NCBI GenBank assembly: GCA_963422465.1
Contig: OY730174.1
Coordinates: 3,560,914 to 3,624,913 of the forward strand
Origin: Lichina pygmaea
Lineage: Eukaryota > Ascomycota > Lichinomycetes > Lichinales > Lichinaceae
DNA length: 64,000 bases
Reading direction: 5' to 3'
Shown: positions 3,601-61,297 of the stretch, one piece after another
Layout of the letters: each line of letters opens with the position of its first letter
Numbering within the stretch: the first letter of the stretch is position 1
Position numbers and translations under genes: made by a program
Notes under the pieces: generated by a model
The model's input: the letters and a program-made list of their open reading frames with translations, nothing else
Databases searched by the model: none
Told to the model about the DNA's origin: nothing

Positions 3601-3992
3601 GGGATAAAGTCTACTTCCTCACAAAGAATTGGAAAACAAAAAAGCCAAAGATAAAGAAACTTGACAATATCAAGGTTAGACTATTTTTGGTTGAAAAGAA
3701 AACAGGACCAGTCAACATCAAGATACAACTACCAAGGGATGCCAGAGTCTATCCAAACTTTCATATCTTAATGATTGAACCAGCTGACCAGAGCACACCC
3801 TTGCAGAAAACATTTTATTACCAGCCTGAAGAAGAGTAGGAATTCAAAGTTGAACAAATCCTGGCTAAGAAAGGTCAGCAACACCTTGTTAAGTGGAAAG
3901 AATACCCAGACTTGGAAAATACCTGGGAACCACTCAAGAACCTTGAGAACTGCCAGCTTCTTCTGCAACAGTTTCAGAAGGAGTAGGACTGA
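693..3992 (+). pseudogene. Pol (PR-RT-RH-IN-chromodomain), family A copy 1
   Basis: Degraded polyprotein, colinear with copy 4 over 1100 codons and carrying many in-frame TAG, TAA and TGA codons. The protease motif DSGAS lies near 775. The reverse transcriptase active site reads YLDN near 1830, where copy 4 has YLDD, a G-to-A change that would abolish polymerase activity. RNase H follows (for example around 2280-2540), then the integrase core (about 2950-3290), then a chromodomain (about 3840-3985). The last pre-terminal codon is also mutated: TAG at 3984, two codons before the family stop TGA at 3990-3992. Confidence 0.92.
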
Positions 3993-4434
3993 ACAGCTTG
4001 GCCTGCAGTACAGATGTATCAATGACTGATCAAGTCAAATCCTTGCTATCTGACTCCATCTCTTTCACCAGACACTGAAGCTTCTGCCTTGCACAGACTT
4101 CAGCACCCTCCAACACCTTTCACTTCTGAGACAGACAAACCTGCACTACTGCAAGTTGTTCAAAAAGTGTGTCACGTGTTACCTCTTCAGTGGCCACATC
4201 CTCACAAAGGTTGTCCCGGGACATGTTCAGAGCCTCCCAGGACATAGAGACACAAGACCTTCTGCACTGAGTGCACACAGCATATTTCAACTTATTGTCT
4301 TCTCCCAGTATTTGGAAACACAGATGACCACAAAGAACACAAAAGTTGCAGGGTGTATGTGAGATAAAATCCTGATCACAGATTTGAGTAGCAAGCTGAG
4401 TTCAGCTAACAGTCGCACATGACTTCAGAGACAT
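3934..4434 (-). pseudogene. Antisense Zn2Cys6-type gene remnant (A2 type)
   Basis: Reads opposite to gag-pol, starting at the ATG on the minus strand at 4434 and occupying the same 501-nt space as the gene in copy 7. The protein has stops and one metal-ligand cysteine (position 51) is changed to tyrosine, but the rest of the cysteine pattern is recognisable. Its 3' end overlaps the last 59 nt of pol. Clearly the A2 version, matching the A2 LTR that follows. Confidence 0.75.
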
Positions 4435-7900: not shown

Positions 7901-8682
7901 ACAGCCAAATCAGTGTAAGAATCAAATCAAAAAAATCAAAAATAAACAGACAGTTAGACAGAGTAAGTAAATCAAGTTCTGGAGACTTACTTGTGGTATA
8001 ACATCAACCAGACCTATAGTAATTAGGTACAACTATTACCAGTGGCACAGCTGGCAATTAACTAGTACAGATCAGATTTAACAAAGAAATCACTATTCAT
8101 TGCCAACTTTGGATAATATACAAATATCAGAATGTCCAGCAAAGCTTCACCAAGTACAGAGAAAGTACTCCAACATGACAAGCTACTACAGTAAACACAC
8201 ACAATAATAAGGCACTACCTTCAAAAGACCTTGGAAAAAATGTAGTGCCAAATAGACAAAAAATCAAAATAGTACCTCAGCTGAAGAAGGAGGATAAAGT
8301 CTACCTTCTCACAAAAAATTGGAAAACAAAGAAACTAAAAATAAAGAAACTTGACAATATCAAGATCAGACTATTTTTAGTCAAAGAAAGAATAGAACCT
8401 GTCAATATCAAGATATAACTACCAAGAGATGCCAGAGTCTATCCAAACTTTTATATCTTAATGATTGAATCAGCTGACCAGAGCACACTCTTGTAGAAGA
8501 TATTTTATTACTAACCTGAAGAAGAACAAGAATTCAAAGTTGAACAAATTCTGGCTAGGAAAGGTCAGTGATACTTCATCAAGTGGAAGGAATACCCAGA
8601 CTTGGAAAATACCTGGGAGCCACTCAAGAACTTTGGAAACTGCCAGCTTTTTCTGTGACAGTTCTAGCAGAGGCAGAACTGA
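4961..8682 (+). pseudogene. Pol, family A copy 2, interrupted by a SINE
   Basis: Protease DSGAS region near 5010-5040, an RT active site reading YLDN near 6065, RNase H near 6500-6840, integrase 6960-7500 and 7942-8130, chromodomain 8535-8680. There are dense stop codons and a few small indels: the non-SINE length is about 2 nt short of expectation. The family terminator TGA is at 8680-8682. Confidence 0.85.
7503..7941 (+). mobile_element. tRNA-derived SINE with LINE-matching 3' tail
   Basis: About 439 bp inserted in the integrase region of copy 2 and flanked by ATAAACAAACAGTT (7489-7502) and ATAAACAGACAGTT (7942-7955), a 14-bp target duplication with one G/A difference. The head is tRNA-like: GGGGTGG at 7503-7509 pairs with CCACCCC at 7624-7630. 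An A box (7512-7523) and a B box (7610-7620, AGTTTGAATCT, consistent with a mutated GGTTCGAATCC) are present, and a 5-bp T stem GTCAG/CTGAC encloses a 7-nt loop. The 3' part (7882-7922) matches the 3' end of the full-length LINE (17366-17406) at 37 of 41 positions without gaps and is followed by an A-rich tail. This is expected for a SINE mobilised by that LINE. Confidence 0.85.
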
Positions 8683-9043
8683 GAAGCTCAGTCTGCAGAA
8701 AGAATGTGTTAATAACTATCATAGTCAAATTCTTGCTATCTAACTCTATCTTCTTCACAAGACAGTGAAGCTTCCACTTTGCACAACTCTCAGTCTTTTC
8801 CAATACTTTCTGCTTTCAAGAGACACAGGCCTGCACTTCAGCAAGCTGTTTGAAAAGTGTGTCACACCTTGCCTTCTCAGCAGCCAGGTCTTCAAAAAGA
8901 TTATCCTGGACTATGTTCAAGAAACCCCAGAACAGAGAGATACAAGACTTTCTATAACAAGTGCATTCAGCACACTTCTATTTACTGTCTTCTCCCAGTA
9001 TTTGGAAACATGGTTGACACAAGAGAACACAAGTTGTAGGGAA
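8624..9043 (-). pseudogene. Antisense Zn2Cys6-type gene remnant, truncated (copy 2)
   Basis: Same position and orientation as in the other A copies, overlapping the end of pol. The LINE fragment at 9044 removed its 5' end at about the first cysteine codons, so the start codon and roughly the first 28 residues are missing. Many stops. Confidence 0.6.
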
Positions 9044-10268: not shown

Positions 10269-10769
10269 ATGCCTGTGAAATCATGTACCTCTGTTTACTG
10301 AAATCAACTGGTGGCCCAGATTCATGATCACAACTTCCTGTCACTTGCTCTGTGTGACTTCTGTGTTTTGAACAGCAAGCCCTGTTTCTGAATATCTGAC
10401 AACAACAATAAGTTGAAGTGTGCTGAATGCACTTATCATGGGAAGTCCTGTGTGTCACTTTCTTGGGAGTTGCTTAACATAACTCAGGATAACTTTTGTG
10501 AGAACCTGGCTGTTGATAAGGCCAAGCAGGATACTCTTGTCAAGCAGCTTGCTGAGCTGCAGACTTGTGTGTTCTGAAAGTGGAAGGTTCTTGAGAGAGC
10601 TGAGAGTTGAGTGAAGAAGAAACTCCAGTGCCTTGTCACTGAAATAGAGGTGGAGGGCAGGGACTTGTCAGTGACAGTCATTGATATGTCTGCACTGCAG
10701 GCCAAGCTATTCAGTCCTACCCCTGGTAGAACTGTCACAGAAGGAGCTGGCAGTTCACAAGATTCTTGA
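10269..10769 (+). pseudogene. Antisense Zn2Cys6-type gene remnant (A1 type, copy 3)
   Basis: 501-nt frame starting at ATG 10269, 81 nt downstream of the TATAAATA in the LTR. The cysteine pairs C-x2-C and C-x2-C are still visible around 10350-10440, but stops (for example at the codon after the first lysine stretch and within the zinc region) break it. It overlaps the end of pol (10711-10769). Confidence 0.75.
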
Positions 10770-16900: not shown

Positions 16901-17217
16901 AAGATTTGAGAAAAGCTGAGTCTAGTCTATTTCTTCAAATTCTGTCAGCAAGAATAGGACTGGCCAGTTTTCTTTTCAGAGCAAATGTTCCAGACTTTAA
17001 CTCCTCTCTATGCACCTGTGGTTTTGGAGAAGAAACAGCCCAACACATCACTTTTTTCTGTAACAAATTTTCAAACCAAAGACAACAAGTCCAATTCCCT
17101 CTACAAGATTTCCCATCTATCTTATTCTCCTCCAAGCTACTTCCTAAACTTCTTTTCTGGTTTATGTCTTTGAAAAGACTTGACCAGTTCAACCTAGCCC
17201 ACCAACTCTCTTTCTAA
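13978..17217 (+). pseudogene. LINE ORF2: endonuclease-reverse transcriptase, one in-frame stop
   Basis: 1080 codons including the terminator, broken only by TAG at 15271-15273. Residues 1-240 form an APE-like endonuclease: N-terminal LQYNVQ, then LQEPW, and SDHRPV near 14648. The RT domain (from about 15400) has the FADD catalytic motif at 16009-16020 and a CGVPQGSP motif near 15900. The C-terminal part ends with a C-x-C-x7-H-x4-C zinc motif near 17010-17060. I see no RNase H domain between RT and this motif, unlike Neurospora Tad. Nicks target DNA and copies its RNA there. The TAG lies between endonuclease and RT, so this copy could make only the endonuclease half unless read through. Confidence 0.95.
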
Positions 17218-27593: not shown

Positions 27594-27843
27594 TGTTGCA
27601 GTCCGTACTGTACCGTCCTATCCGAGTATAGGATTAGGGCGAGAGGTGGAAGGCAGGTTGGTTCTCGCAGGAGAGGAGTGTCAAGGAGTGCGAAGGGGTT
27701 TGGTGGAACGTGGTGGTGGTGACACCTGATCACAGCTTTGTACAAAGGATTGTATTGAAGTAGATCTAGTTGTCTGGATCACAACATGAGTTGAAGACAA
27801 TTGTTCCATAAGGGAACTATCGCCGGACTATATAGTGCTGGCC

Positions 27844-28040
27844 TGTCAAGACAATCAAGATTGTCTCAACAGTCTTGACGTCGAGACGGGTGAGATTGTC
27901 TTGACAGTCCCACCATGTTATGCACCCTGCGTCAAGACTGGTGAGATTGTCTTGATGCTTCATGCATCATGCGTCGAGACTGGTGAGATTGTCTTGATGC
28001 TTCATGCACCATGCGTCAAGACTCCCGTGTGTCTCGACAG
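27844..28040. promoter_or_regulatory. A1 dyad array (operator-like) in the 3' LTR of copy 4
   Basis: Tandem 42-bp units, each with TCAAGAC-N10-GTCTTGA (or TCGAGAC/GTCTCGA in less mutated units), a perfect 7-bp inverted repeat. The array lies between the sense TATA (27828) and the antisense TATA (28113), so it could act on both promoters. Binding by the antisense zinc protein is an inference. Confidence 0.6.
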
Positions 28041-28112
28041 TCACGTGACCCCTTGTTGGTTGGTCACTTGACTTCCATGGTGTCCTCTTGCCTGGCCCGC
28101 GGCCTGATTGCC

Positions 28113-28118
28113 TATAAA
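28113..28118 (+). promoter_or_regulatory. TATA box facing the antisense gene (copy 4)
   Basis: TATAAA 79 nt upstream of the antisense ATG, near the inner edge of the 3' LTR. The A2 copy 7 has TATATAAA 77 nt upstream of its ATG, so position is conserved although the surrounding U3 differs. Confidence 0.6.
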
Positions 28119-28191
28119 TGAGTGGCTCCCATCCCTGGGTCGTAACACTACCCTCCTCTCCTTCATTCATCGTCCCGATGAATTCTTGAGT

Positions 28192-28692
28192 ATGTCTGCA
28201 AAATCACGTGCCTCTGCTTACCGAAACCAACTGGCAGCCCAGATCTGTGATCATAACTTTGTGTCACTTGCTCCGTGTGACTTCTGTGTTTTGAACCACA
28301 AGCCCTGCTTCCGAATGTCTGACGACAACGATAAGTTGAAGTGCGCTGAGTGCACTCGTCAGGGAAAGTCCTGTGTGTCACTTTCTTGGGAGTCGCTGAA
28401 CATGACTTGGGATAACCTTCGCGAGGATTTGGCTGTCGATGAGGCCAAGCGGGATGCTCTTGTCAAGCAGCTTGCCGAGCTGCAGGCTTGTGTGTCCTGA
28501 AAACAAAAGGTTCTTGAGGGTGCTGAGGGTCAAGCAAAGAAGAAGCTCCAGTGCCTTGTTGCTGAAATGGAGGCGGATGGTGAAGACTTGTCGGCGACAG
28601 TTATTGATGTGTCCGCGCTGCAGGCTGAGCTGTTCAGTCCTGCTCCTGCCGGAACTGCTGCAGGAGGAGCTGGCAGTTCGCGAGGTTCCTGA
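28192..28692 (+). pseudogene. Antisense Zn2Cys6 / coiled-coil gene of family A, A1 type (one stop)
   Basis: 501-nt frame opposite to gag-pol, between the 3' LTR and pol, with ATG 45 nt beyond the LTR edge. A three-codon upstream ORF (ATG AAT TCT TGA, 28178-28189) precedes it. Cysteines at 29, 32, 39, 51, 54 and 61 give C-x2-C-x6-C-x11-C-x2-C-x6-C, the spacing of Zn(II)2Cys6 DNA-binding clusters, though without the usual basic residues between Cys 2 and 3. A Leu/Glu/Lys-rich region (about 70-130) could be a coiled coil for dimerisation. The single in-frame TGA (28498-28500) replaces a glutamine codon of the A2 homologue. The last 59 nt overlap the end of pol on the other strand. Probably a nuclear regulator of the element; function inferred. 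Confidence 0.8.
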
Positions 28693-40500: not shown

Positions 40501-40894
40501 GGGGGATAAAGTCTGCCTTCTCACAAAGAATTGGAAAACAAAAAAGCCAAAGATAAAGAAACTTGACAACATCAAGGTCAGACTATTTTTGGTTGAAAAG
40601 AAAACAGGACCAGTCAATATCAAGATACAACTACCAAGGGATGCCAGAGTCCATCCAAACTTTTATATCTTAATGATTGAACCAGCTGACCAGAGCACAC
40701 TCTTGTAGGAAACATTTCATTACCAGCCTGAAGAAGAGCAGGAATTCAAAGTTGAACAAATCCTGGCTAAGAAAGGTCAGCAACACTTTGTCAAGTGGAA
40801 AGGATACCCGGACTCGGAAAATACCTGGGAACCACTGAAGAACCTTGTGAACTGCCAGCTTCTTCTGTGATAGTTCCACTGGGAGCAGGACTGA
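37595..40894 (+). pseudogene. Pol of copy 6
   Basis: 1100 codons colinear with copy 4. Start ATG-to-ATA, many stops. The RT active site reads YLDN near 38740. Integrase core 39863-40177 is open for about 100 codons, and the chromodomain is at 40735-40890. Confidence 0.92.
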
Positions 40895-41336
40895 ATAGCT
40901 TGGCCTGGAGTGCAGACATAGCAATGACTGTCACCGACAAGTCCTCACCCTCCACCTCCATCTCAGTGACAAGGCACTGGAGCTTCTTCTTCACTTGACC
41001 CTCAGCTCCCTTGAGAATCTTCCACTTTCAGGACACACAAGCCTGCAGCTTGGCAAGCTGCTTGACAAGAGCATCCCACTTGGCCTCATCAACAGCCAGA
41101 TCCTTGCGAAAGTTATCCCAAGTCATGTTCAGCAACTCCCAAGAAAGTGATACACAGGACTTCCCACAACAAGTACACTTGGCGCACTTCAACTTATTGT
41201 TGTTGTCAGATATTCAGAAACAAGGCTTGCTGTTCAAGACACAGAAATCACAGAGAGCAAGTGACAGGAAGTTGCGATCACAAATCTGGGCTACCAGTTG
41301 TCTTCAGTAAACAGAGACATGTGATTTCACAGGCAT
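40836..41336 (-). pseudogene. Antisense Zn2Cys6-type gene remnant (A1 type, copy 6)
   Basis: 501-nt minus-strand frame from ATG at 41336, overlapping the end of pol by 59 nt. Three stops, but all six metal-ligand cysteines are still present, between about 41155 and 41255. Confidence 0.78.
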
Positions 41337-45485: not shown

Positions 45486-48372
45486 ATTTTTTTATTTTTA
45501 TTTTATTCTTACTCTGATTTGGCTGGTGAGCCATGCAGAACTTCTAGATACATGCTTTTTTTTCCCAGAAAACCTTTGAAGGAATAAAAACTGAGACTTG
45601 GGTAAGACTAGGAAATTATCTGGAAGAATATGCAGTGTCTGGAGAAAATAAAATCACAGAGATGATAGGTTTTCTGGTAAGAGTTGGTGTGCTAAGTTAA
45701 ACTGGTCTAGTCTTTTCAAAGACATAAACCAGAGAAGGAATTCTTTAAGCACTTTAGGCTTTTAAAGTAAAGTAGAGAAATTGTAGGAAAGAAAAGTGGC
45801 TTGCTGTCTTTGAGTAAGAAACTTGTTACAAGAGAAAGTAATATGTTGAGCAGTCTCTTCTCCAAAACCACAGAAACATAGAGGGGATTGGAAGTCAGGA
45901 ACATTTGCTCTGAAAAGAAAGCTGGCTAGTTCTATCCTTGCTGATAGAATCTGCAAGTAAAGACTAGCTTCAGCTTTTCTCAAGTCTTTGAAAACTTTGA
46001 GATTTTTCTTTTGGGGTAGTCTGCAAAATAGCTCCCAGACTGAAGAACATTTCTGTCTGTTTGCCTGCTATCTGGCTTCCCACTCTTTCTGAAACACTTC
46101 TTGAAATTGTTTCTTAGAGTAATCTTGGTTAGTGGTTAGTTCTTCTAGCCATCTTGCTTTCCAGTTAGGTGTGATAGTAGACAGAGACTTTGGAGGTGTT
46201 CTCGGAGTAGAAACAAAAACAGTGATCTGGGAAAAGAGCTTATAGAGAAGTGAGGAGAGAGGATTAGAAGAAGTATTGGAAAAATAGAAAGATTATAGGA
46301 AAGTTGCTGTTCTAAATTTGAAATAAAGATCAAGAGGTGGTAGGAATAGTTCTCCTTCAATAAGAAATGTAGGAGTAGCTTTGAAGACACCACCTATAGT
46401 TTTTAGACACTTAGTCTGGAAAAGATTTAGAGAAGAAATATTAGAAGGTTTTTTGTGGGGATTGAACCAGACTCCTACTGCATAGCTGAGAAGTGATCTC
46501 AGTATTGCAGTGTAGACAAGTCTAGCAGAGAGAACAGGTAGACCCCATGTAGAAAAAGTAGTTCTGGAAAGTGCTGAGAAAAACTTGGAAGCTTTCTGTA
46601 ACATGATTTTCTGGTGTTTTTTCCAGAGAAGCTTGGAATCATAGTGTAGTCCCAGAATACACACTTCTTCCTTAGGCTGTAGTACCACTTCTCCAAGTCT
46701 TAGACTGAGCTGAAGATTATCTGTTCTTCTTCTAGAAAAATAGAGAAGTTCATACTTTTCAGGTGCAAACTTCATTCTATGTTTTCTTGCCCAGTCTAAA
46801 CACTTGGAGTGAGTAGACTTTAGCTTCAGGAGATTGCTTTCAAGAGAAGGGGAAAATGCCAGAAGGTTTGTGTCATCTGCAAAGCCCAGAGCTGATACAC
46901 CTTTCTCTGGTGTATGAACAGTATTATGAAGATCTGAAATATAGAAAAGAAATAAAATAGGAGAGAGAGGTGAACCTTGAGGGACTCCACAGTGTACTGG
47001 AAAAAAAGAAGACTCTGAATCATCAAAGACAAGAGAGGTTTTTCTTTGGGTAGTGAAAGAAAAGATCCAGTTAACAAACCAGCTGGGGATTCCTTTTCTC
47101 TCCAGGATTTTCTTGAGAATTTCTGGCAGAACTCTATCATAAGCTCCTGAGATATCCAGAGAAAGAAGACTCGCTACCATTCCTTTCTTCCAGACTTTTT
47201 GAACTTGGGAAGTGAGTAGAAATAGTGCAGACTCAGTTGATCTTCCTTTTCTAAAGTCTATCTGGATTTCTGGTAGTAGGTTTTCTTTCTCAGCCAGTTC
47301 ACTTAGCTTTGTGGCTGCCAGAGCTTCTATCAGCTTCCCAATTGTGTTGAGAAGTACTATTGGCCTCCAAGCTTTGGCATAGCAATAGGATCCTTTGCTA
47401 GGCTTTCTCAAGCATATTGTTCTGGCTGCTTTGTATCTGTCAGGGAAATATTCTAGCTTCCAGCAGGCCTCCAGAACTTTGGCTATCTTTTCATTGAAAG
47501 AGTCTCCTAATACCTTTAGAAATCCATTGGGTAGAGTGTCTTTCCCAGGAGCTGTAAAAAGTTTTTTCTTTTTCAGAATATTGTGGATATCTTCTTTGGA
47601 GATTTCCTGAGATAGCTGGTGTTGTTGGTGGTTGGCTGGCTGGTCCTGGGATTCTGGTACTGGCTGGAGAGGTAGAGGGAAGAACTGGGTTTTGAATACT
47701 TCTACCTTTTCTGTGAAAGTTCTGGCAGTTTCTCCATCTTCCTTTGTGAGCTCTGGAACAATTGGAAGTTCTGGTGGTTTGCCAGCTTTTTCTTTACCCC
47801 ACTTGGCTATTTTCCAGTGCTTTTGTGTTTCAGCCAGGTTCTGGAGTTGTTCTCTGAATGTCTTTCTTTTAGTATTCTTGATCAGGTGTTTCTTTTCCTT
47901 TATTACCTTTTCAAGTTTGTAGACTGGTTCTTGGTTTTGGAAGACTTTTCTTCTTAGTTTTCTTTCCTCTTTAATTTTCTCTTTAATCTCTTGGTTCCAC
48001 CAGGGAACAGTGTACTTTAAGTCTCTCAGAGGTCTTGTTGTCTTGTCAGCCAGTTCTTGAAGAGCTTTGTCCAGATTCTCCAGATAGTTGTCCACTTCCT
48101 CTCTGTTAAGTAGTGGTGGAATAGGGGGAAGATTCTTAGCTTCTTTCTTGACTTGGTCCAGATCTAGTGTTCTCCAGTTTCTTTGGTGGGTTCTGGCTTT
48201 CTTTGGTGTTTCCAGACTTAGGATTGTCTGAACTGGTCTGTGGTCTGAACCTGTGTGGAAGTCTAGGTTAATCTGGGAAGAAATAAAGAAATTAAGAAGT
48301 GACATAGAAATAAAAGATAAGTCAATAGCAGAGGAGGGAGACTCTGCCAGTGTTCTTGCTCTTGTTGGTGTG
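45486..48372 (-). mobile_element. LINE3 (third LINE subfamily), 5' part separated by element B1
   Basis: T-rich end at 45486, then the 3' region and most of ORF2 on the minus strand. The sequence continues to 48372, where the B1 LTR begins, so the missing 5' part should lie on the far side of B1. Confidence 0.92.
45716..48372 (-). pseudogene. LINE3 ORF2 (endonuclease end, RT, C-terminal zinc motif)
   Basis: A 670-codon open stretch (46293-48305) covers SDHRPV of the endonuclease (near 48235), the linker, CGVPQGSP near 46980 and FADD near 46885. Broken frames (45762-45983 and others) carry the end of the protein with C-x-C-x7-H near 45840-45880. Sequence left of ATG 48305 continues the same protein, so the ORF start there is not the true start. 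Frame breaks lie near 46293. Confidence 0.92.
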
Positions 48373-48761
48373 TGTTAAGGCCTAGGCCGGAACAGCCCAG
48401 GTAAGCGAGGGAGGACTGTTAGTCATGCGGAACAACATCCGACCAATCCGGTGGACAAGCAGGAGCTAAGCGAGGAGCTTGTCCGGTGGACGAGCAGTCT
48501 CTAAGTGAGGAGCTTGTCCACGCAAAAGGATGATACCCCTTGAGGAGACCCCCCCCTCAGGGCATCTGTATAAAGACCCCCCAAAGGGCCTGGAGGGATT
48601 AGCTCTCCAGGCTGAACACTAATGCACACATCGTACTGAGACAATAGCACAGGAGAGTTACCCCACCTGTCTATTCCTCTACCAAGTCCCTGTCTAGAAC
48701 CCACCCTGCAAAACAGCAAGACTGAACTGCCTTCTGTGTGAACCCAGCCCAGCCTTTAACA
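48373..48761 (+). repeat. LTR (5') of B1
   Basis: 389 bp, TGTTAAGGCC to CTTTAACA. It has dyad half-sites of the GGACAAGC / GCTTGTCC type (about 48450-48530), TATAAA near 48570, and CCAGGCTGAA about 40 nt downstream. This is complementary to TTCAGCCT located 2 nt inside the LTR. Confidence 0.92.
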
Positions 48762-48799
48762 GTTTCAGCCTTGAACATACAGGACACTGACTTGATACA

Positions 48800-50131
48800 A
48801 TAGTGGATCCACAGAGCCCTACCCTTTCTCAGTCAGCTCAAGCTCAAGCTGCTCAGGCAGCTCAGGCCCAGGCTGTCCAGGTGGCACCTATTGTTAACCT
48901 ACCCCCAAAGCCCTTGAAGGTAGGTGCCCCGAAGAGGTATGATGGATCCAGAGGAGGACTGGAGTTGTTCTTCTCACAACTGGAGCTTTACTATAGGTTC
49001 AACACAGCCCAGTTCCCAACAGACCAGAAGAAGGTGCTATTTGCAGCCTCCTACCTGGAAGGACCAGCCTTCGCTTGGTTTAACATCTACTTAAGAGATT
49101 ACCTAGATAATCAGGCAGACTCCAAGGAGTAAGAAGACAATACCCGACAGGTTATGGGAAGCCTGAAGACCTTTAAGACAGCCATGAGAAAGATGTTTGG
49201 GATTCTTGACAAGGAAAGAGACATGGAACAAAAGCTCCAAGCACTGCAGTAAACAGGATCAGCATCAGAATTCACAGCGAGGTTCCAACAACTAGCGGTG
49301 AGAACTCAGTGGGGAGACAGTGCACTAACAGCGCTGTTCTACCAAGACCTCAAGGAATAAGTCAAGGATGACATCACACGAGGAGACTGACCAACCAAGC
49401 TCTACAAAATAATCAAGACTGCAGCTTGCATCGATGACTGACAGTTTGAGAGAGAGCTTGAGAAGTGAGGCAAGCAGACAAAACTATGGGTGAAGAAAAA
49501 CCCAACACCTGCCAAAGATAACTACAGCTTGGTACCCATGGAAATCAATGTGGCAAAACCATGAAAGAAGGAGACATGGAAGTGTTACAACTGTCAGAAA
49601 GTGGGCCACCTTGCAGTCAACTGCAGGAGTAAGAAGAAGAACAACAAGGGCAGAGGGAAGCAGTTGAATGCCACAAGCACCTGGAAAGGCAGAGAGATAG
49701 AGGAGCCCCAGAGGGCCCCCCAAGACACACTGCCCTACAATCACCCTGAGGCAGCACTCCTCAGAGAGGAGAACAACCTCTGACAATACGCTGAAAAACT
49801 TGAGACTATGCTCCAAGAAACCTTGGACCACCTTGACAAGGTCTGAAGGAAGGTTGACAGAATCCACTGGGAGGACAACCTGATCTCCAAGTTCAACACA
49901 ACTGGCTACATGGAGGAATGGGTTGACGACAAGAAAGCCCAGCCACCACCAGTCCCCAATAAACCTGTCCTTTGACAACAGGACACAACCCTATCAGAAA
50001 TAGGGGAAACGCAAGTGCCACGATAGGTCAACAATACTCTCAGCATCACACAGGTCAAAGACGCCACCACATGATGCAAACAACATGTGGTAGAGCGTCA
50101 GGCCCAGGGCCTGGGCAGCTCAAAAAACTAG
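48800..50131 (+). pseudogene. Gag of B1, lacking the twin CCCH region
   Basis: Start codon ATG mutated to ATA (48800). Capsid region 48900-49450, knuckle C-x2-C-x4-H-x4-C near 49590-49625, several stops. At 444 codons it is 71 codons shorter than B2 gag. The missing part is exactly the Cys/His-rich C-terminal region seen in B2 at 56683-56892. Ends in A AAA AAC TAG (50122-50131). Confidence 0.85.
50122..50128 (+). promoter_or_regulatory. -1 frameshift slip site of B1
   Basis: A AAA AAC in gag frame, directly followed by the gag stop TAG. Pol continues in the -1 frame. Same as in B2. Confidence 0.75.
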
Positions 50132-51674
50132 CAGCACTCTTCAAAACCAGGGTCAGAAGAGCAGGCAAGACAACACCCTGGGAGGAAGGAGTCAAGCCAA
50201 GCCTTGACATGACAGCCTGCAGTCCACACTTTCACATCAAGATCAGAGTCAATGGGTGGTTGGCTAAGGCCATAATCAACTCTGGTGTGACTGGCAACTT
50301 CATGTCAGAAAGCTTTGCCAGAAGAAACAAGGTTCTAGTCCAAGGCAAGAAAGACCCTTACCAGTTGACAGTAGTGGACAGAACACCACTCTCCAAAGAC
50401 AAAGGACAAGTGACAAAGGAGACCAAGAGCCTGAGACTGAGTGTCCATGGCACAATGATCAGAACAGAGAAATTCAACTTGGTCCAGATACCACATGAAG
50501 TTATATTGGGACTTCCGTGGTTGGAAAAACAAAACCCAAGGATTGACTGGAAAAGAAGGCAACTAGTCTTTCCGGATAAGACACTGGTCAAGTCAGAACC
50601 AGGAGTGACAATTAAGGAAATCTCACTAACACAGTGGAAGAAACACCACCAGTGCGGGGAGGCCTGTGTGGCCTGGATGAAACCCTGAACACAACAACTT
50701 TGCACCACGCAAGACACCGTGGGTGAGACTCAGGCACTGCAGTTGCCAAGTGAGTATAAAGAATACTAGGAGATGTTCGAAGAAACAGTGATCACAACAC
50801 TACCAGAACATCAGGAGTGGGACTACAAGATTCCACTAGAAGACAGAAAGAAGCCCACACACAGCTCTATCTACACTCTGTCAGTGAAAGAGCTTGAAGC
50901 CCTGAGAGACTACCTGGACAAGAACCTAGTGAAAGAGTTCATAAGACCTTCAACATCACCGGCTGGATACCTGATATTGTTTGTGCCAAAGAAAGACAGC
51001 AAACTTCAACTGTGTGTTGATTATCAGTGGCTAAATGTGATCACAGTGAAAAACTGTTACCTGCTGCCATTGATATCAGAAATCCAAGACCAGATCCAAG
51101 GAGCCAAATAGTTTACCAAGTTTGATATTCAAGGTGCTTTCAACCTGGTTAGGATGAAAGACAGCGAAGAATGGAACACAGACTTTTGTACAAGGTACAG
51201 GCACTACAAGTATACTGTGATGCCATTCAGCCTTACGAATACACCAGCGATATTCCAATCACTTATTAACACTGTCCTCTGACAATACCTGGACATATTT
51301 GTCACTGCCTACATTGACGACGTCTTGGTATACACCAATGGAACTCTGGAGGAGTATAAACAGCATGTCAAGAAGATCCTACATGCACTCCAGAAAGCTG
51401 GCATAAGGTTACGCCTTGATAAGAGTGTTTTCCACACGAAAGAAGTGGAATATTTGGGGTCGATCCTAACAACAGAAGGAATCTGAATGGACGACACAAA
51501 GATGGCAGTAGTACAAGACTGGCCAACACCCAAAAACCTCAAAGAAGTACAATCCTTCCTAGGATTTGCAAACTTCTACCGACAACTCATCAAGAACTAC
51601 TCAAGAACAGCAGCAGCCTTGATAGAGTTAACCAGAAAGAACAAATCTTTCAGGTGGGGGGAGAGCCAACAAGT
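50129..51674 (+). pseudogene. Pol of B1 (PR, RT), truncated
   Basis: Protease with NSGVT (near 50278) in place of the DSG/DTG catalytic motif, RT with YIDDV near 51310, and a C-terminal part up to FRWGESQQ near 51665 where copy 7 begins. Stops at several sites (50686, 50767 and others). Confidence 0.88.
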
Positions 51675-51928
51675 TGTTGCAGTCTGTACTGTACTGTCCT
51701 ATCTGAGTATAGGATTAGGGCGAGAGGTGGAAGGCGGGTTGGTTCTCACAGGAGAGGAGTGTCAAGAAGTGCGAAGAGGTTTGGTGGAACGTGGTGGTGG
51801 TGACACCTGATCAACAGCATCATACAAAAGGATTGTATTGAAGTAGATCTAGTTGTCTGGATCACAACATGAGTTGAAGACGATCATTCCATAGAGGAAC
51901 TATCGCCAGACTATATAGTGCCCAGTTC

Positions 51929-52078
51929 GTGAGCAGAGTGAGCTCTGCTCACTTTGCTCACTTTTCATGCACGCTGCAGTGAGCTGGGTGAGCTCTGCTC
52001 ACTTTGCTCACTTTTCATGCACGCTGCGGTGAGCTGGGTGAGCTCTGCTCACTTTGCTTACTTGTTTGTGCATATGCA
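51929..52078. promoter_or_regulatory. A2 dyad array (operator-like), three 50-bp units
   Basis: Each unit reads GTGAGC-N3-GTGAGC-N3-GCTCAC-N3-GCTCAC followed by a 14-nt linker, so half-sites repeat every 9 bp, two direct then two inverted. Units start at 51929, 51979 and 52029. One half-site of the third unit is mutated (GCTTAC). Lies between sense TATA and antisense TATA. Confidence 0.7.
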
Positions 52079-52184
52079 TGCTGCGGCGAGCACCCCCTGG
52101 TTTGTCTCGCCGGTCACGTGACCAGTTCCTGTGTCATGCTGTCTGGTACTTCTGTCCAGTATCCTGTCTGCTGCTTTCTGTGAG

Positions 52185-52192
52185 TATATAAA
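52185..52192 (+). promoter_or_regulatory. TATA box facing the antisense gene (copy 7)
   Basis: TATATAAA 77 nt upstream of ATG 52262, matching the position of TATAAA in copy 4 (79 nt). Confidence 0.6.
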
Positions 52193-52261
52193 GACTGTGT
52201 TCCTCCTGGGTTGTAACACTATCCTCCTCTCCATCTTTTATCATCTTGATGAAATCTGGTC

Positions 52262-52762
52262 ATGCCTCCAAAGTCACGTGCGACTGTTAGCCGAACTCAG
52301 CTGGCTGCTCAAATCCGCGATCAGGGTTTTGTTTCGCGTACACCCTGTGACTTTTGTGTTCTCTGTGGTCATCCGTGCTTCCAGATGCTGGGAGAAGACG
52401 ATAAGTTGAAATGTGCTGCGTGCACTTGGCGTGGAAGGTCTTGTGTCTCTGTGTCCTGGGAATCTTTGAACATGTTCCGGGACAACCTCCGTGAGGATGT
52501 TGCCACTGATGAGGCAACACGCGATGCACTCTTTGAACAACTTGCCACAGTGCAGGCTTGTCTGTCTCAGAAGCGAAAGGTGTTGGAGGGCGCCAAGGTC
52601 TGTGCAAGGCAGAAGCTTCGGTGCTTGGTGAAAGAGATGGAGTCAGATGGCAAGGATTTGACTTGATCAGTCATTGACACGTCCCTCCTGCAGGCTGAGC
52701 TGTTCAGTCCTGCTCCTGCCAAAACTGTCGCAGAAGAAGCCAGCAGTTCACGAGGTTCTTGA
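52262..52762 (+). pseudogene. Antisense Zn2Cys6 / coiled-coil gene of family A, A2 type (one stop)
   Basis: Same length (501 nt) and place as in copy 4. Cysteines at 29, 32, 39, 51, 54 and 61 fit C-x2-C-x6-C-x11-C-x2-C-x6-C. An extra Cys at 35 is specific to A2. A Leu/Glu/Lys-rich segment (70-130) follows. The first 134 residues are open. A single TGA (52664-52666) interrupts a frame that then continues with good similarity to A1 up to TGA 52760-52762. The N-terminal 130 residues differ more from the A1 protein than gag or pol differ between the two copies. Overlaps pol by 59 nt. Role as a DNA-binding regulator is inferred from the cysteine pattern. Confidence 0.8.
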
Positions 52763-54939: not shown

Positions 54940-55352
54940 TGTTAAGGCCCAGGCCGGAACGACTGAGCTGACCGAAGCGAGTGTACAGAGGTACACGGAA
55001 CAATGTTCACCCGACCCGGTGGACGAGGTGGACGATGTGTAACCAGCTCGTCCAGCTCGTCCACAGGAACAATGTTCACCCGACCCGGTGGACAAGGTGG
55101 ACAATGTGTAACCAGCTTGTCCAGCTCGTCCACGCAGAAAGCTGATACCCCTCGGGAGGACCCCCCCCCCTCAGGCTCCTGTATATAAGAACCCAGATAG
55201 CCAGAGAGAATAGCTCTCCAGGCTGAACGCACATTACGAGCGACAATAGCAAGAGAGTTACCCCACTTGCTATTCATCTATTGAGTCCCTGCCCTCCTCG
55301 GTCGAAGACAGGACCACCCACATTCTGTGTGAACGTGGACTGGCCTTTAACA
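54940..55352 (+). repeat. LTR (5') of B2
   Basis: TGTTAAGGCC to CTTTAACA. Two dyad blocks at 55019-55064 and 55088-55133 (69-bp period), TATATAAG at 55182-55189, predicted mRNA 5' region AGGCTGAA at 55220-55227. Confidence 0.97.
55019..55133. promoter_or_regulatory. B dyad array (operator-like), two 46-bp blocks
   Basis: Each block has two direct half-sites (GTGGACGAG, GTGGACGAT) and, after a 10-bp centre, two inverted ones (CTCGTCCAG, CTCGTCCAC), again with 9-bp period. Upstream of the TATATAAG box. Same design as A2 with different half-site sequence. Confidence 0.65.
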
Positions 55353-55354
55353 GT

Positions 55355-55362
55355 TTCAGCCT
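55355..55362 (+). promoter_or_regulatory. Putative primer-binding site (self-priming), B2
   Basis: TTCAGCCT, 2 nt after the LTR, is an exact complement of AGGCTGAA at 55220-55227, which starts 38 nt downstream of the first T of TATATAAG. Confidence 0.55.
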
Positions 55363-55390
55363 CTAACACATAGGACACCAGCTCAATACG

Positions 55391-56935
55391 ATGGCAGATC
55401 CACGCAGCCCTACCCCTTCGCAGGCAGGCCAAGCCCGGGCTGCGCCTCAGGCGTAAGCCCAGGAACCACCTGTCCCTACCACCCTCACCTTACCTCCAAA
55501 GCCGTTGAAGGTAGGTACACCGAAGAGGTATGATGGATCACGAGGGGGATTGGAATTATTCTTCTCTCAGCTTGAGCTTTACTACAGATTCAACGCCGCA
55601 CAATTCCCTACGGAACAGGAGAAGGTGCTGTTCGCAGCTTCCTACCTGGACGGACCGACATTTGCCTGGTTTAATGTCTACCTACAAGACTTCCTCGACA
55701 ACAAGGAAGATCCCTCTAGCATGGAGACCACGACACGGCAGATCATTGGGAGATTCTCTACCTTCAAGACCCAGATGAAGAAGACCTTCGGGGTCATTGA
55801 TGAAGAACAAGATGCGGAACGAAAGCTCCAAGCACTACGGCAGACAGGGTCAGTATCAGACTTCGTGGCGAAGTTCCAACAGCTGTCAGTGAGGACACAA
55901 TGGGGAGACAGTGCCTTGACGGCACTATTCTACCAAGCTCTCAAGGAACAAGTCAAGGATGACATCGCACGAGGAGACCGACCCACCGACCTCAAGGATA
56001 TGATCGACACAGCGGTACGCATCGACGACCGACAGTTCGAACGAGAACTCGAGAAGCGAGGCAAGCATGCAAGGCCATAGGGCAAAAAGACAGCGCCAGC
56101 ACAAGACAAGTACGGCTTGACACCCATGGAGATTGATGCAACAACACCACAGGCAACAAAGAAGAAAGAAACACGGAAGTGTTACAATTGCCAGAAGGTA
56201 GGACACCTCGCAGCCAACTGCCAAAGCAAGAAGAAGAAAGAAGGCAAGGGTAAGCAGTTGAATGCCACCAGTGCCTGGAAAGGCAAGGGTATTCAGGAGC
56301 CACCGAGGGCCCCCAGAGGCACGCTACCCATGAACTGGTCAGAAGCAACACTCCTCGGACAGGAGGACAATCTCAGACAGCACATCGAAAGACTGGAGAA
56401 CGATCTGCAGAGGTCACTGGAGGACCTGCACGCAATCCAAGACCAGATCGATAAGGTTCATTGGGAGGATGACCTGATCTCCGAATTCGACACAACAGAC
56501 TACGAGATTGACATAACCGGCATGCCACCAGTTCCCGAGACACCACTACTCCGACGACAGGATGCGACCTTGTCGGAGGACGGCGAAGCAAGAGTGACGC
56601 GATAGGTGGACGACACCATCAGCATCTCACAGCCCCGAGACATCACAGCGCAAGTGGACCTTCACCAGGCTACGACACCAGCCTGCGGACGTCCTTATTG
56701 GAAAGGATGTGAGGACCACCACTGCAAGGAACATCTCCTAGAGAAAAGGAGAAGGCACTACTTCCCTGGCCCAGAATACCACAAGAAAGCCTGGAGCATC
56801 AAGCACGAGCTAAGCCAGCAAGGGAAAGAACACGATGATTGCGGAGAAGACGCATGGGAGCTATGCTTCACCGAAAAATGCGAAAGACACGTGGCAGAAC
56901 GCCAGGCTCAGGGCCTTGGTTGTTCAAAAAACTAG
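55391..56935 (+). pseudogene. Gag of B2
   Basis: 515 codons from ATG 55391 with three stops (TAA 55454, TAG 56078, TAG 56603). Pro/Gln-rich start, capsid-like domain (about 55505-56080) with YDGSRGG and FLDNKED segments, CCHC knuckle C-x2-C-x4-H-x4-C near 56180-56220, an acidic coiled-coil-like stretch near 56360-56470. Then a Cys/His-rich tail (56683-56892) with two C-x7-C-x4-C-x2-H motifs. Ends at TAG directly after the slip site. Would form the particle and bind RNA. Confidence 0.93.
56926..56932 (+). promoter_or_regulatory. -1 programmed frameshift slip site, B2 gag/pol
   Basis: A AAA AAC in register with gag codons TCA AAA AAC, followed at once by TAG. Slipping back one base opens the pol frame (continuing KKLAVLF). 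Matches the X XXY YYZ rule. A downstream pseudoknot was not assessed. Confidence 0.8.
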
Positions 56936-59900
56936 CAGTGCTCTTCAAATCCGGAGTCGGAAGAGCAGGCAAGACAACACTCCGGAGAGAAGGGGTCGAG
57001 CAGAGCCTTGACGCGACAGCCTGCAGTCCGCATTTTCGCATCAGGATAAGAGTCAACGGGCATCTGACGAACGCCATGATCAACTCTGGAGCTACTGGCA
57101 ACTTCATGTCAGAAAGTTTCGCCAGGAAGCACAAGATCCCAACTCAGGAAAAGAGGAATCCATACCAACTAACAGTAGTGGACGGGACACCACTCTCCAA
57201 CAACCAAGGACAAGTGATGAAGGAGACCAAGAACCTACGACTGTGTGTCGACAGTACGACAATCGGATCAGAAGAATTCGACTTGGTCCAGATACCACAT
57301 GAAGTTATATTGGGTCTTCCGTGGTTGGAAAGTCAAAACCCAAGGATCGACTGGAAAAGAAGGCACCTAGTCTTTCCGAAGAGGAGTCTGGCAACTCGAG
57401 CAGAGCCAGAGAAAGTGAGAATCAAAGAGATCTCATATGCAGGGTGGAAGAAGCACCACCGGCGAGGGCAAGCCTATGTGGCTTGGATGAAGCCCCGAAA
57501 CCATCAACTTTGCACCACGCATGACGCCGTGGGCGAGACTCAGGCACCGCAGCTGCCAAGTGAGTATAAAGACTACCAGGAGATGTTTGGTGAGGAAGCA
57601 GTCGCGACGCTACCGGAACACCAAGAGTGGGATCACGAAATTCCGCTGGAAGACGGAAAGAAACCCACACATGGCCCTATTTACGCTCTATCAGCAAAGG
57701 AGCTTGAGGCCCTAAGAGATTACCTGGACGAGAACCTAGCGAAAGGGTTCATAAGACCTTCAACATCACCGGCCAGATACCCGATATTGTTTGTGCCAAA
57801 GAAAGACAGCAAATTACGACTGTGTGTCGACTACCGGCAGCTTAATGCGATCATGATTAAGAATCGCTACCCGCTACCGTTAATATCGGAAATCCAGGAC
57901 CGAATCCAAGGAGCCAAGTGGTTTACCAAGTTCGACATCCGAGGCGCTTTCAACCTGGTTAGGATGAAAGATGGCGAAGAATGGAAGACAGCCTTTCGTA
58001 CGAGGTACGGGCATTACGAGTATACCGTTATGCCATTCGGCCTTACGAATACACCGGCGATGTTCCAATCGCTCATTAACGCCATCCTCCGACAATACCT
58101 GGATATATTTGTTACCACTTATATCGACGATGTCTTGGTTTACACCAATGGAACCCTGGAGGAGCACAGACAGCATGTCAAGAAGATCCTACATGTGCTC
58201 CAAGAAGCAGGAATGAGGTTACGCCTTGATAAGAGCATCTTCCACGTGAAAGAAGTGGAATATTTGGGATCGATCCTGACGACGGAAGGAATCCGTATGG
58301 ACGATACAAAGATCACGGCAGTACGAGACTGGCCAACACCCAAAAACCTCAAAGAAGTCCAATCCTTCCTAGGATTTGCGAACTTCTACCGACGATTCAT
58401 CAAGGAGTACTCAAGGACAGCAGCACCCTTGACTGAACTAACAAAGAAGGAAGAAACCTTCACATGGGGGAACAGCCAAGAGAGAGTGTTCCAGGAGCTG
58501 AAAGAGAAGTTCACCTCCGCACCCATACTGGCATCATTTGATCCCGGACGGCAGATCATCATGGAGACAGATGCCTCAGACCAAGCACTTGGATCTTGCT
58601 TGTGTCAACCAGACGCCGAAAACCGCCTACACCCTGTCGCATACTGATCAAGAAAGTTCTCTGGCCCAGAACTCAGGTACGATGTTCACGACAAGGAGTT
58701 GTTAGCGATTGTCAACGCATTCCAGGAGTGGAGACCTTACCTGGAAGGAGTAAAGTACACAGTGGACGTGTACTCAGACCACAAGAACTTGGCTTACTTC
58801 ACGACAACGAAGAAGCTAAACAGACAACAAGTCCGATGGGCGGAGCTTTTAGCTTCATACGACTTCCAGATCTTCTATCGAAAAGGATCAGAAAACGCAC
58901 GAGCGGACGCGCTTAGCAGGCGGCCTGATATGACGACAGACGACATGACAGAAGAGCGCCCAATCCTAGTGACAAAAGGACAAACTCTGGTCTATGCTCA
59001 ACCTCAGTTAGCGAGAACTGAAGAAATGGGTGCACTCCTGACCCTAGGCCACAACGTTGCGGCCACGAACAAGGAAGAAGTGCCAGAGAGCGCACAAGAG
59101 GACGTGATTCGACAACATCACGATGGACCTCTACACGGACATCCTGGGCGAGACAAGACCCTGGAAAAGATCCGGAGACGTTACCACTTCAACAGAATGA
59201 AGCGGAAAGTGACGGAATTTATTCGCAACTGCGAAGAGTGTGCGAAAAACAAACCGTCACGCCACAAACCCTATGGAGAGAGTCAACAAATAGACCTCCC
59301 AGAAGCGGCTTGGGATACTATCACAATGGATTTTGTGGTGAAGCTGCCGAGGTCAGAGGACCCGGTAACAAAGGTGAAATATGACAGTATCTTGGTGGTT
59401 GTTGACAAACTCACCAAATACGCTCACCTGATCCCGTGGCGAGAGACAGGAACAGCGAGCGAACTCGCCAATGTCCTACTCAAAGAATTGGTTAGCCAGC
59501 GAGGGCTACCCACGAAGATTATCTCGGATCAAGACAAACTCTTCACCTCGAAATTCTGGAACACGTGGACAAGACAGCTAGGGATAGACACGAGGATGTC
59601 TACTGCCTACCATCCACAAACAGACAGACAAACTGAGAGAACAAACCAGACGATGGAACAGTACCTACGCCACTACGTCAACCACCGACAGGACGATTGG
59701 GTAGAACTGCTACCAATGGCTCAGTTTGCGTACAACGATCAGCAACACAGCGTGACAGGCATGACGCCGTTCTTTGCGAACTACGGCAGAAACCCCCGCT
59801 GGGAAGCGATGGCGGCTGGAAGTGGCACTTCAACAAACATCGAAAAACTCACTGCTATGCATGAGGAAATGAAGACTGCAATTGAATCTGCACAAAAGAC

Positions 59901-60447
59901 AACAAGCCACCGCCTAAACAGCAAAAGGTTGAAGGGACCAACCCTGGAGAGGGGGGATAAGGTCTATTTGTCAACAAAAAACCTGCGCTTGAAGCGACCA
60001 AGCAAAAAGCTGGATCATGTACGAATCGGACTGTTTGAGATTGAGAAGCGCACTGGAGAAGTCAACTACAGACTGAGACTGCCAAAAAAGGCACGGATAC
60101 ACCGAGTATTCCATGTCTCGCTGCTTGAGCCAGCACCCAGCGACGCAGCAATCGAAACAGAATAGCACTTCGAGGACAACAAAGAAGAGTACGATGTCGA
60201 AAGGATCCTAGACAGCCGGAGAAGCAGACGGAAAATCGAATACCTGGTCAAGTGGTTAGGGTATGACAATGAGGAGAACTCGTGGGAACCCACCGAGAAC
60301 TTCAGCCCTGAGACAAACGAGAAACTGCGGAGTTTCCACCGACAAAACCCGCAGAAGCCAGGATCGATGGAGACAAAGGCTCAAGAGAAGCCAAAGCCTC
60401 CGAAGAGAAGAAGTCCTCCAAAGGCGGCGGGGACTCCACACGCGTAG
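56932..60447 (+). pseudogene. Pol of B2 (PR-RT-RH-IN-chromodomain), two stops
   Basis: 1172 codons in the -1 frame relative to gag, broken only by TGA 58645-58647 and TAG 60163-60165. Protease near 57075 reads NSGAT: the catalytic Asp is Asn, as in B1. RT has FDIRGAFN near 57930 and YIDD near 58122. RNase H has TDAS near 58570 and DHKNL near 58780. Integrase has the HHCC region (59100-59250), MDFVVKLP near 59325, SDQD near 59525 and the TER glutamate near 59635. The GPY/F-like part is near 60010, and a chromodomain (60170-60310) lies after the TAG. A basic, Pro/Lys-rich tail overlaps the antisense gene. Confidence 0.95.
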
Positions 60448-60832
60448 CCTCCTGCTCGAGATCCTCTTGATCCTCGATCGCAGCAAGCTCACGCTTGATG
60501 GCCTCACCCTCCTTCTTGGACAACACACCCAACTGACGACGGAGACGAAGTTTGCGAGGAAGGAGAACAGACTCCTGCTCCTCGATCTCCTTCAGTTGAG
60601 CCTCAAGCTGAGTGCGCTCAAGCTCCATCTTCTCCCACTCCGACTCCGCGAGATGGAGATCGCAACGGCGACCCTTCTCAAGGCACCGACCGCAAAATGT
60701 GGACTCTGAACTGACGACACACTTGGCACGGTCACGACAACATGCACTGCATGAAACTTTGGATACCTTGCCCATCTTGCCAACACGAGAACCGAGGACT
60801 CCACGACGATTACAACAAGATGTCCGGGTCAT
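60302..60832 (-). CDS. Antisense Zn2Cys6 / coiled-coil protein of family B, intact
   Basis: 176 residues, ATG at 60832, opposite to gag-pol, between pol and the 3' LTR, with no internal stop. Cysteines 28, 31, 38, 47, 50 and 57 fit C-x2-C-x6-C-x8-C-x2-C-x6-C with basic residues between them (CSACCRDRAKC, then CGRCLEKGRRC), very close to fungal Zn(II)2Cys6 regulators. Residues about 63-130 are Glu/Leu/Arg/Lys-rich with heptad-like spacing, a likely dimerising coiled coil. An acidic, Ser/Pro-rich end follows and could be an activation region. Its 3' end overlaps the last 146 nt of pol. The upstream region is the 3' LTR with the dyad array. I infer a transcription factor of the element; nothing in the sequence proves this. 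Confidence 0.85.
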   Translation of the reverse strand: MTRTSCCNRRGVLGSRVGKMGKVSKVSCSACCRDRAKCVVSSESTFCGRCLEKGRRCDLHLAESEWEKMELERTQLEAQLKEIEEQESVLLPRKLRLRRQLGVLSKKEGEAIKRELAAIEDQEDLEQEATRVESPPPLEDFFSSEALASLEPLSPSILASAGFVGGNSAVSRLSQG

Positions 60833-60884
60833 GGTAAGAGAAGCGAGAGGATCTGGGGACAGAACCTTTGGAGGGAGGAGATGG

Positions 60885-61297
60885 TGTTAAGGCCCAGGCC
60901 GGAACAGCTGAGCTGACCGAAGCGAGTGTACAGAGGTACACAGAACAATGTTCACCCGACCCGGTGGACAAGGTGGACGATGTGTAACCAGCTCGTCCAG
61001 CTCATCCACAGGAACAATGTTCACCCGACCTGGTGGACGAGGTGGACGATGTGTAACCAGCTTGTCCAGCTCGTCCACGCAGAAAGCTGATACCCCTCGG
61101 GAGGACCCCCCCCCCTCAGGCTCCTGTATATAAGAACCCAGATAGCCGGAGAGAATAGCTCTCCAGGCTGAACACACATTACGAGCGACAATAGCAAGAG
61201 AGTTACCCCACTTGCTATTCATCTATTGAGTCCCTGCCCTCCTCGGTCGAAGACAGGACCACCCACATTCTGTGTGAACGTGGACTGGCCTTTAACA
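60885..61297 (+). repeat. LTR (3') of B2
   Basis: 413 bp, same ends as the 5' LTR. Dyad blocks at 60964-61009 and 61033-61078. The differences from the 5' LTR are transitions, several inside the half-sites. Confidence 0.97.

Follow-up and report, generated by a model that had tools for sequence, protein, structure and literature searches.

An antisense six-cysteine gene linked to the U3 region of its long terminal repeat in Ty3/gypsy elements of Lichina pygmaea

Introduction

Fungal and plant long terminal repeat (LTR) retrotransposons are known that carry an extra gene reading against gag-pol. In fungi this is brtn, reportedly described by Zhao et al. in 2011 as an antisense gene of the Boty-like elements of Botrytis. 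The available parts of three later papers assign it to Boty-like Ty3/gypsy elements of Botrytis cinerea and make no mention of a link with the U3 part of the LTR (PMC8365987, PMC4227169, PMC5987419). Here we describe an antisense open reading frame (ORF) in a 64,000-bp stretch of the genome of Lichina pygmaea (contig OY730174.1, positions 3,560,914 to 3,624,913; hereafter the window, to which all coordinates refer). This frame, ORF B, is carried by the Ty3/gypsy element B, and similar ORFs occur in its relatives B' and B'' and in the elements A1 and A2. Like brtn, it is an extra antisense gene in a fungal chromodomain Ty3/gypsy element.

The plant counterparts are the antisense ORFs (aORFs) of the aORF-3R type, exemplified by Grande gene23, RIRE2, Retand and PvRetro13, which likewise lie between pol and the 3' LTR. 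According to the accessible text of a review, some of their proteins are nuclear, an antisense promoter lies upstream of gene23, the proteins have no clear similarity to database proteins described and their roles are undetermined (PMC7264820). The same text reports neither a zinc cluster nor an exchange of U3, the two features that would set the present ORF apart.

An antisense gene at this place is thus not new as such (brtn, aORF-3R), and the initial annotation of this locus, which knew of no Zn2Cys6 regulator encoded antisense in a retrotransposon, went too far as regards antisense genes in general. The literature searched, which leaves most subscription papers outside, contained no antisense zinc-cluster gene in a retrotransposon, and a paper on Blastomyces LTR elements does not mention antisense, ORF or zinc (PMC11540331). 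The main point, which that annotation missed, is that the ORF is linked with U3. This linkage is new within the literature searched and is more interesting than the ORF alone. We consider it on balance probable, if barely so, that the product of the antisense ORF is a DNA-binding protein, specific to its element, that regulates the element's own LTR and is exchanged together with its operator as one module.

Results

Element B carries an open antisense gene

The window is a stack of nested retrotransposons. Element B is complete and nested in an A1 element, and its parts are as follows.

54940..61297, + strand: element B, complete, nested in A1 element (LTR pair, termini TGTTAAGG...CCTTTAACA, flanks)
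54940..55352, + strand: 5' LTR (LTR comparison)
55505..56605, + strand: gag with capsid and zinc knuckle, two ORFs in the window copy (Pfam)
56839..60165, + strand: pol with protease, reverse transcriptase (RT), RNase H and integrase, two ORFs in the window copy (Pfam)
60166..60447, + strand: pol C-terminus, chromodomain and a tail that overlaps the antisense ORF (Pfam, frame reading)
60302..60832, - strand: antisense ORF B, 176 aa (ORF reading, selection tests)
60662..60754, - strand: six-cysteine, zinc-cluster-like segment of ORF B (PS00463; Zn_clus on relatives)
60885..61297, + strand: 3' LTR, beginning 52 bp upstream of the antisense ATG (LTR comparison)
60939..61078, unstranded: U3 tandem repeat, two 69-bp units, dyad GTGGACGA/TCGTCCAC, proposed operator (Tandem Repeats Finder; dyads compared with shuffles in one relative)
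61127..61134, + strand: sense TATA box of the LTR, TATATAAG (sequence reading)

The order of gag, protease, RT, RNase H, integrase and chromodomain between the LTRs (Pfam; Chromo match in the pol C-terminus, E=6.5e-16) identifies B as a Ty3/gypsy chromodomain element. It is flanked by a 5-bp target duplication, GTGTG, and its 413-bp LTRs are 97.6% identical, all 10 differences being transitions. Two nearly full LTR matches occur in 18 of 20 fetched relatives of element B, and the LTR pairs of B copies, the window copy included, are 97.3-99.8% identical and differ by transitions only (19/19 pairs).

As initially annotated, the frame at 60302-60832 on the minus strand is fully open, running from ATG to stop with no internal stop, and lies between pol and the 3' LTR against gag-pol. 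At its 3' end it shares 146 bp with the part of the pol frame that follows the chromodomain. Reading of the ORFs also bears out the six-cysteine spacings given for both families, x2,x6,x8,x2,x6 in B and x2,x6,x11,x2,x6 in A1/A2.

The ORF and U3 are exchanged on a constant backbone

The A1 and A2 elements and a truncated relative of B provide the comparisons within the window.

28192..28689, + strand: A2 antisense ORF (element on minus strand), one in-frame stop in the window copy
27838..28147, - strand: U3 of the A2 element at 28192, 42-bp repeats, dyad GTCTYGA/TCRAGAC
28113..28118, + strand: antisense TATA box of the A2 element, 79 bp upstream of the ORF start
52262..52759, + strand: A1 antisense ORF (element on minus strand), one in-frame stop near the 3' end
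51921..52218, - strand: U3 of the A1 element at 52262, ~50-bp repeats, dyad GCTCRC/GYGAGC
52185..52190, + strand: antisense TATA box of the A1 element, 77 bp upstream of the ORF start
48373..51669, + strand: truncated B-related element, y, lost before its ORF

The three families had been credited with quite different gag-pol genes. This holds for A against B, whose RT regions are 53% identical over 205 aa, but not for A1 against A2, whose gag-pol is ~95% identical with differences that are nearly all transitions. Over the 4789 aligned bp of gag, pol and R-U5, comparison of the A1 and A2 elements of the window gives 231 transitions and 7 transversions. In the 498 bp of the ORF the corresponding counts are 94 and 56, and the U3 regions, at 51% identity over 280 aligned bp with 80 transversions and 44 gap columns, barely form an alignment. 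The pol tail (291 bp, outside the 4789-bp sum) holds 11 transversions. All 30 fetched A1 copies repeat this pattern against the window A2 element: the ORF holds 56 or 57 transversions, the pol tail 6-11 and 500 bp of pol 0-2 (medians per 100 bp of 11.2, 2.4 and 0.2). We reject a differing evolutionary rate as the explanation, because synonymous and transversion differences would have to rise about fifty-fold at the ORF border next to a pol without transversions.

The B elements show a second, independent case of exchange. Over 1313 bp of pol, B and B' are separated by 32 transitions and no transversion, and from TAGCTCTCC to the LTR end their R-U5 differs by one base; their ORFs are ~74% identical and their U3 regions 68%, with 31 transversions. 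Conversely, B' and B'' have the same ORF type and 94% identical U3 regions (2 transversions) together with R-U5 regions that are 71% identical (25 transversions). The pol tail was also compared over 94-97 bp that lie more than 100 bp behind the ORF; it differs from that of B by no transversion in 5/5 B' copies and by 2 in 5/5 B'' copies. The B' LTR and pol come from one copy, as does the B'' LTR. Since its ORF and U3 match B'' and its pol and R-U5 match B, B' looks like a B backbone with a B''-type ORF and U3. A different backbone for B'' is suggested by R-U5, the pol-tail transversions and the y element, which combines B'-type U3 dyads with R-U5 of another type. The sequence behind one B'' ORF copy (C2:3574260) leaves the element after ~150 bp, probably at a nested insertion.

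In both cases the left break is close to where U3 presumably meets R. The right break falls within ~100 bp behind the ORF in B/B' and within ~300 bp in A1/A2. Minus-strand transfer in reverse transcription takes place at R, near the U3/R border.

ORF type and U3 type go together

In every U3 type, tandemly repeated units that carry inverted half-sites precede the sense TATA box; in B' and B'' these are 45-bp units with the half-sites GGACGAGC/GCTCGTCC. Exact 8-bp inverted repeats number 8-14 per U3 in five of the six U3s, where shuffles average 0.2-0.4. Genome-wide, at no more than 2 mismatches, one A2 pattern has 1013 sites and one A1 pattern 645; the reversed control patterns have none. The number of repeat units seems to vary within a family, as judged from uneven LTR lengths (A1 U3, 314-452 bp).

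The linkage was scored on contigs C1 and C2, for which the first 100 exact sites of each pattern give complete coverage, counting an exact dyad within 700 bp upstream of an ORF and leaving out one row of the A2 list that is an A1 ORF. The A1 dyad lies upstream of 27 of 46 A1 ORFs and the A2 dyad upstream of none of them, while 15 of 44 A2 ORFs have the A2 dyad and 0/44 the A1 dyad. ORF type therefore matches U3 type in every scorable ORF (27/27 A1, 15/15 A2).

The A families also share an antisense promoter motif. TATAWA occurs at -77 on the antisense strand in 30/30 A1 copies and at -79 to -81 in the three A2 copies of the window, although the A1 and A2 U3s barely align; over the window the motif occurs 0.05 times per 100 bp on each strand. 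In an old A1-like copy only TATAAG stands at this place.

The segment between the second and third cysteines touches DNA in GAL4. It reads VLRGRP in A1 and VLNHKP in A2, whose half-sites differ, and RRDRAK in B and RRDHAK in B', which have the half-site GGACGAG in common. CGG or CCG stands near the dyads in the B and B' U3s only, and no shared spacing of CGG-type sites was found over the four LTRs tried.

An ordinary accessory gene of the brtn or aORF-3R type, with no tie to U3, would leave the dyads as host-factor sites or RNA hairpins. Such genes are known at the same place, and U3 repeats are often bound by host factors. The family-specific dyads match the ORF type in every scorable case, which makes this reading very unlikely.

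A purely mechanical linkage deserves more weight, and we regard it as unlikely, second in rank among the alternatives. The ORF would then serve another role (nucleic-acid chaperone, particle assembly, nuclear import or integration) and would travel with U3 because reverse transcription copies U3, then the ORF, after the transfer at R. The breakpoint at U3/R would accordingly be the place of minus-strand transfer, and in A the tract also takes in the pol tail and some of the chromodomain region (11 transversions/291 bp). What such a linkage leaves unexplained is the differing dyad arrays with conserved architecture, the antisense TATA box at the same distance in A1 and A2, and tracts that end within ~100-300 bp of the ORF in both cases.

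The antisense ORF is conserved and under selection

Genome searches scored the best 150 of 290 candidates for relatives of ORF B and the best 150 of 501 for ORF-A relatives. The 21 distinct B copies, of which the window copy is one, are all free of internal stops, and 20 of them keep the six cysteines in register. B' and B'' copies keep the cysteines in 7/10 and have an internal stop in 1/10; for A1 copies the numbers are 28/30 and 26/30. Most copies have a conserved ORF that is antisense to gag-pol and located behind pol, before the 3' LTR; this is the arrangement of an aORF. In the A1 copies inspected the commonest stop is the same TGA shortly before the ORF end, and it sits in a stretch just before and across the pol overlap. 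The protein may be able to do without its last residues there, or the stop may be inherited. A strongly diverged A-like protein (E 0.003) lies on a 6.8-kb contig, perhaps from another fungus. Proteins of the P0023 type reach no more than 65% identity with the 150 scored places, which points to a different genome as their probable source. The aldolase gene, being of yeast type, marks the host itself as a fungus.

Between the window B copy and eight relatives, 387 of 574 differences are C/T changes at CpG. B copies thus decay by CpG mutation, and for this reason cysteines appear where relatives have arginine. The observed/expected CpG ratio is 0.24 in the window, 0.78 in the young B element and 0.05 in an old A copy (4961-9041). 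Repeat-induced mutation or methylation is a possible cause of the CpG-directed decay.

Six pairs of B against B'/B'' give a ratio of nonsynonymous to synonymous rates (dN/dS) that is 0.23-0.27 for the complete ORF and falls to 0.17-0.21 when the pol overlap is left out and to 0.07-0.10 within the zinc region, at dS values near or above 1, that is, saturated. For the A1 ORF against the A2 ORF it is 0.15, with some synonymous sites saturated. Three tests were made against a null that redistributes the changes at random while preserving their type and CpG context (3000 replicates each). The ratio of nonsynonymous to synonymous differences (pN/pS) observed is 0.32 in B and 0.29 in A, with null means of 0.92 and 0.77, and no replicate reached the observed value in any of the three tests (0/3000 in each). 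The other five frames contain stops in all three comparisons.

These comparisons show that the antisense ORF is under purifying selection, with dN/dS far below 1 (0.15-0.21). A chance open frame or decayed passenger might be suspected, as the window copy has no Pfam match. The selection tests, the absence of internal stops from all 21 B copies and the cysteine signature, which is missing from shuffled windows (below), rule out a chance ORF and reduce the probability of this reading as a whole to next to nothing.

The B protein resembles a zinc cluster

In six frames of the window the PS00463 zinc-cluster signature has a single match, ORF B, and a looser six-cysteine pattern has three (A2, A1 and B); neither occurs in any of 40 Markov-shuffled windows. 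PS00463 is matched by the window copy, by 18/21 B copies and by 7/10 B'/B'' copies. The Zn_clus family (PF00172) is found in four of five less mutated B-type proteins (E 0.016-0.028, 14.9-15.8 bits), below the Pfam gathering cut-off of 21 bits; the window copy has no match at E<=1. Against PDB chains, a combined A+B profile, which leans on its MAFFT alignment, returns zinc clusters in 10 of 19 matches (best E 0.026), with GAL4, HAP1 and CYP1 filling the first five places.

Several results count against a zinc cluster, above all in family A. Besides the scores below the cut-off, the fifth B-type protein has no Zn_clus match, and one B'-type protein (P0011) fits a bacterial polymerase domain better (E 0.0054 vs 0.016). 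A B-only profile ranks RING fingers first among PDB chains, with LEU3, CYP1 and HAP1 making up 4 of 9 matches. PS00463 matches no A copy (0/30), the A-only profile finds no zinc cluster among its 6 PDB matches, and no profile confirms family A as Zn2Cys6. Zn_clus scores E 0.24 and 0.86 in two of 11 A-type proteins scanned and is absent from the other 9.

The assignment to the Zn2Cys6 class made for all families is thus retained in part. The B protein is Zn2Cys6-like by its signature and its sub-threshold Zn_clus matches and is predicted to bind zinc. The A protein has six cysteines in a similar layout, with kinship to Zn2Cys6 unproved. Aligning the A and B profiles with hhalign gives a probability of 11% and pairs the wrong cysteines, and we do not claim A and B as proven homologs. 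DUF3716 (PF12511), a six-cysteine domain, was rejected as the family of A: it matches one A protein only (13.8 bits, E 0.055; cut-off 22 bits, not reached), and six genome members that were read have another cysteine spacing. This domain has nine above-cut-off places in the genome, two of them near copies, so some may be repeats.

The head of the antisense protein is basic and its tail acidic and hydrophobic; the C-terminal 45 residues hold 5-10 acidic and 0-3 basic residues in 4/4 proteins counted. The coiled coil proposed behind the cysteines is plausible, yet a heptad test against shuffles is not significant in three of four proteins and marginal in the fourth (14/300).

A proposed regulator of its own LTR

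The regulator proposed above would work as follows. Its Zn2Cys6-like head would bind the tandem dyad sites in U3 as a dimer. In the A families at least, U3 would be a two-way promoter: gag-pol RNA would depend on the TATA box of the 5' LTR, and expression of the regulator on another TATA box in the opposite strand of the 3' LTR. The pol 3' tail, the ORF and U3 would form a cassette, in which protein and sites evolve and move together while gag-pol and R-U5 otherwise stay constant. The exchange probably takes place when co-packaged RNAs are reverse transcribed, by strand transfer at R together with template switching in pol. The effect of the protein on its LTR would most likely be activation or release from silencing; we favor this sign because the tail is acidic and the genome attacks CpG in repeats.

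A more specific version, to which we give somewhat less than an even chance, holds that these are phage-like cassettes: an antisense zinc-cluster regulator with an operator array in a two-way U3, swapped between lineages, with exchange points at the U3/R junction and behind the ORF. One gag-pol backbone would then exist with different self-recognition specificities.

A number of observations weigh against an exchanged regulator-operator module. The linkage represents a few ancestral events and not 42 independent ones, because it is inherited, and since the ORF and U3 are neighbors, one copying tract moves both whatever their function. Neither exact dyad is present at 48 of the 90 ORFs on C1 and C2. 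The y element has only one exact dyad, and the count of 8 in the A2 U3 compares with 7 in one of its shuffles. The B U3 has no antisense TATA box, and the dyads are not classical CGG pairs, except partly in B and B'. Furthermore, the first 24 residues of B are unconstrained (dN/dS 0.6-1.1), and dS is saturated where it nears or exceeds 1.

The sign of regulation separates two further readings. A repressor could limit its own family, through copy-number control or homotypic immunity, and exchange of ORF and U3 would be the escape from it, as in heteroimmune phages. A genome crowded with relatives suits this idea, and regulator-operator exchange on a constant backbone is the trace that such an escape would leave. 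The acidic, hydrophobic C-terminus and the position of the dyads upstream of the sense TATA box fit an activator at least equally, and we consider a repressor unlikely, although it ranks first among the alternatives.

Ranked third, and improbable in our view, is a dedicated anti-silencing protein that binds its own U3 repeats and removes or blocks silent chromatin or CpG methylation, like the VANC proteins of VANDAL elements. The repeats vary in number and differ between families as VANC targets do, and the genome mutates or methylates CpG in repeats (see the CpG changes and the old copy above). VANDALs, in contrast, are DNA transposons, and VANC is not known to be a zinc cluster.

Other elements in the window

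Four further antisense ORFs of family A are decayed.

3937..4434, - strand: A1-like antisense ORF, decayed; the LTR at 4478 has A1-type dyads
10269..10766, + strand: A2-like antisense ORF, decayed; the LTR at 10224 has A2-type repeats
40839..41336, - strand: A2-like antisense ORF, decayed; antisense TATA 81 bp upstream
8627..9031, - strand: antisense ORF of another A subtype, decayed, 5' end cut

By eye, the ORF list also contains a LINE-like (long interspersed nuclear element) sequence at 12491-17217, with a CCHC gag-like ORF1 and an endonuclease/RT ORF2, and related fragments at 22223-24139, 42401-43375 and 46293-48305.

Comparison with known systems

The antisense protein resembles the Zn2Cys6 regulators GAL4, HAP1/CYP1 and LEU3 in its six-cysteine spacing and in the basic segment between the second and third cysteines. 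As in HAP1, a tryptophan and an acidic/basic stretch follow the cluster. It differs from these regulators in its sub-threshold scores, its short length, its location in a mobile element and its orientation antisense to that element, and family A is unconfirmed. If the assignment is true, a zinc-cluster regulator became a retroelement accessory gene. Should BRTN prove to be a zinc cluster, the protein part of the finding would no longer be new in kind; the U3 linkage would still be new within the literature searched.

HBZ of HTLV-1 (human T-cell leukemia virus type 1), an animal retrovirus, is a basic leucine zipper regulator of the LTR encoded by an antisense gene beside the 3' LTR. The likeness lies in this position and in an LTR regulator of DNA-binding type; the sequences are unrelated. 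The accessible text of the review places the HTLV antisense promoter in the 3' LTR (PMC7264820).

The nearest working analogue is the VANC/VANDAL system, as portrayed in the available parts of two papers. VANC targets are tandem repeats that differ between related transposable elements, and related VANCs have different targets (PMC5735166, PMC10398659). An element-encoded, sequence-specific protein and its tandem-repeat targets thus diverge together, as is proposed here. VANDALs differ in being plant DNA transposons with another protein family, and those parts report no exchange on identical backbones.

The antisense gene gains a testable role from its predicted DNA-binding head, a candidate operator and natural swaps on a constant backbone. 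In temperate phages, immunity modules of regulator and operator are swapped as a unit on a shared backbone. The likeness would be one of working only. If the proposal is true, module exchange is the way in which retrotransposons, like temperate phages, evolve self/non-self specificity.
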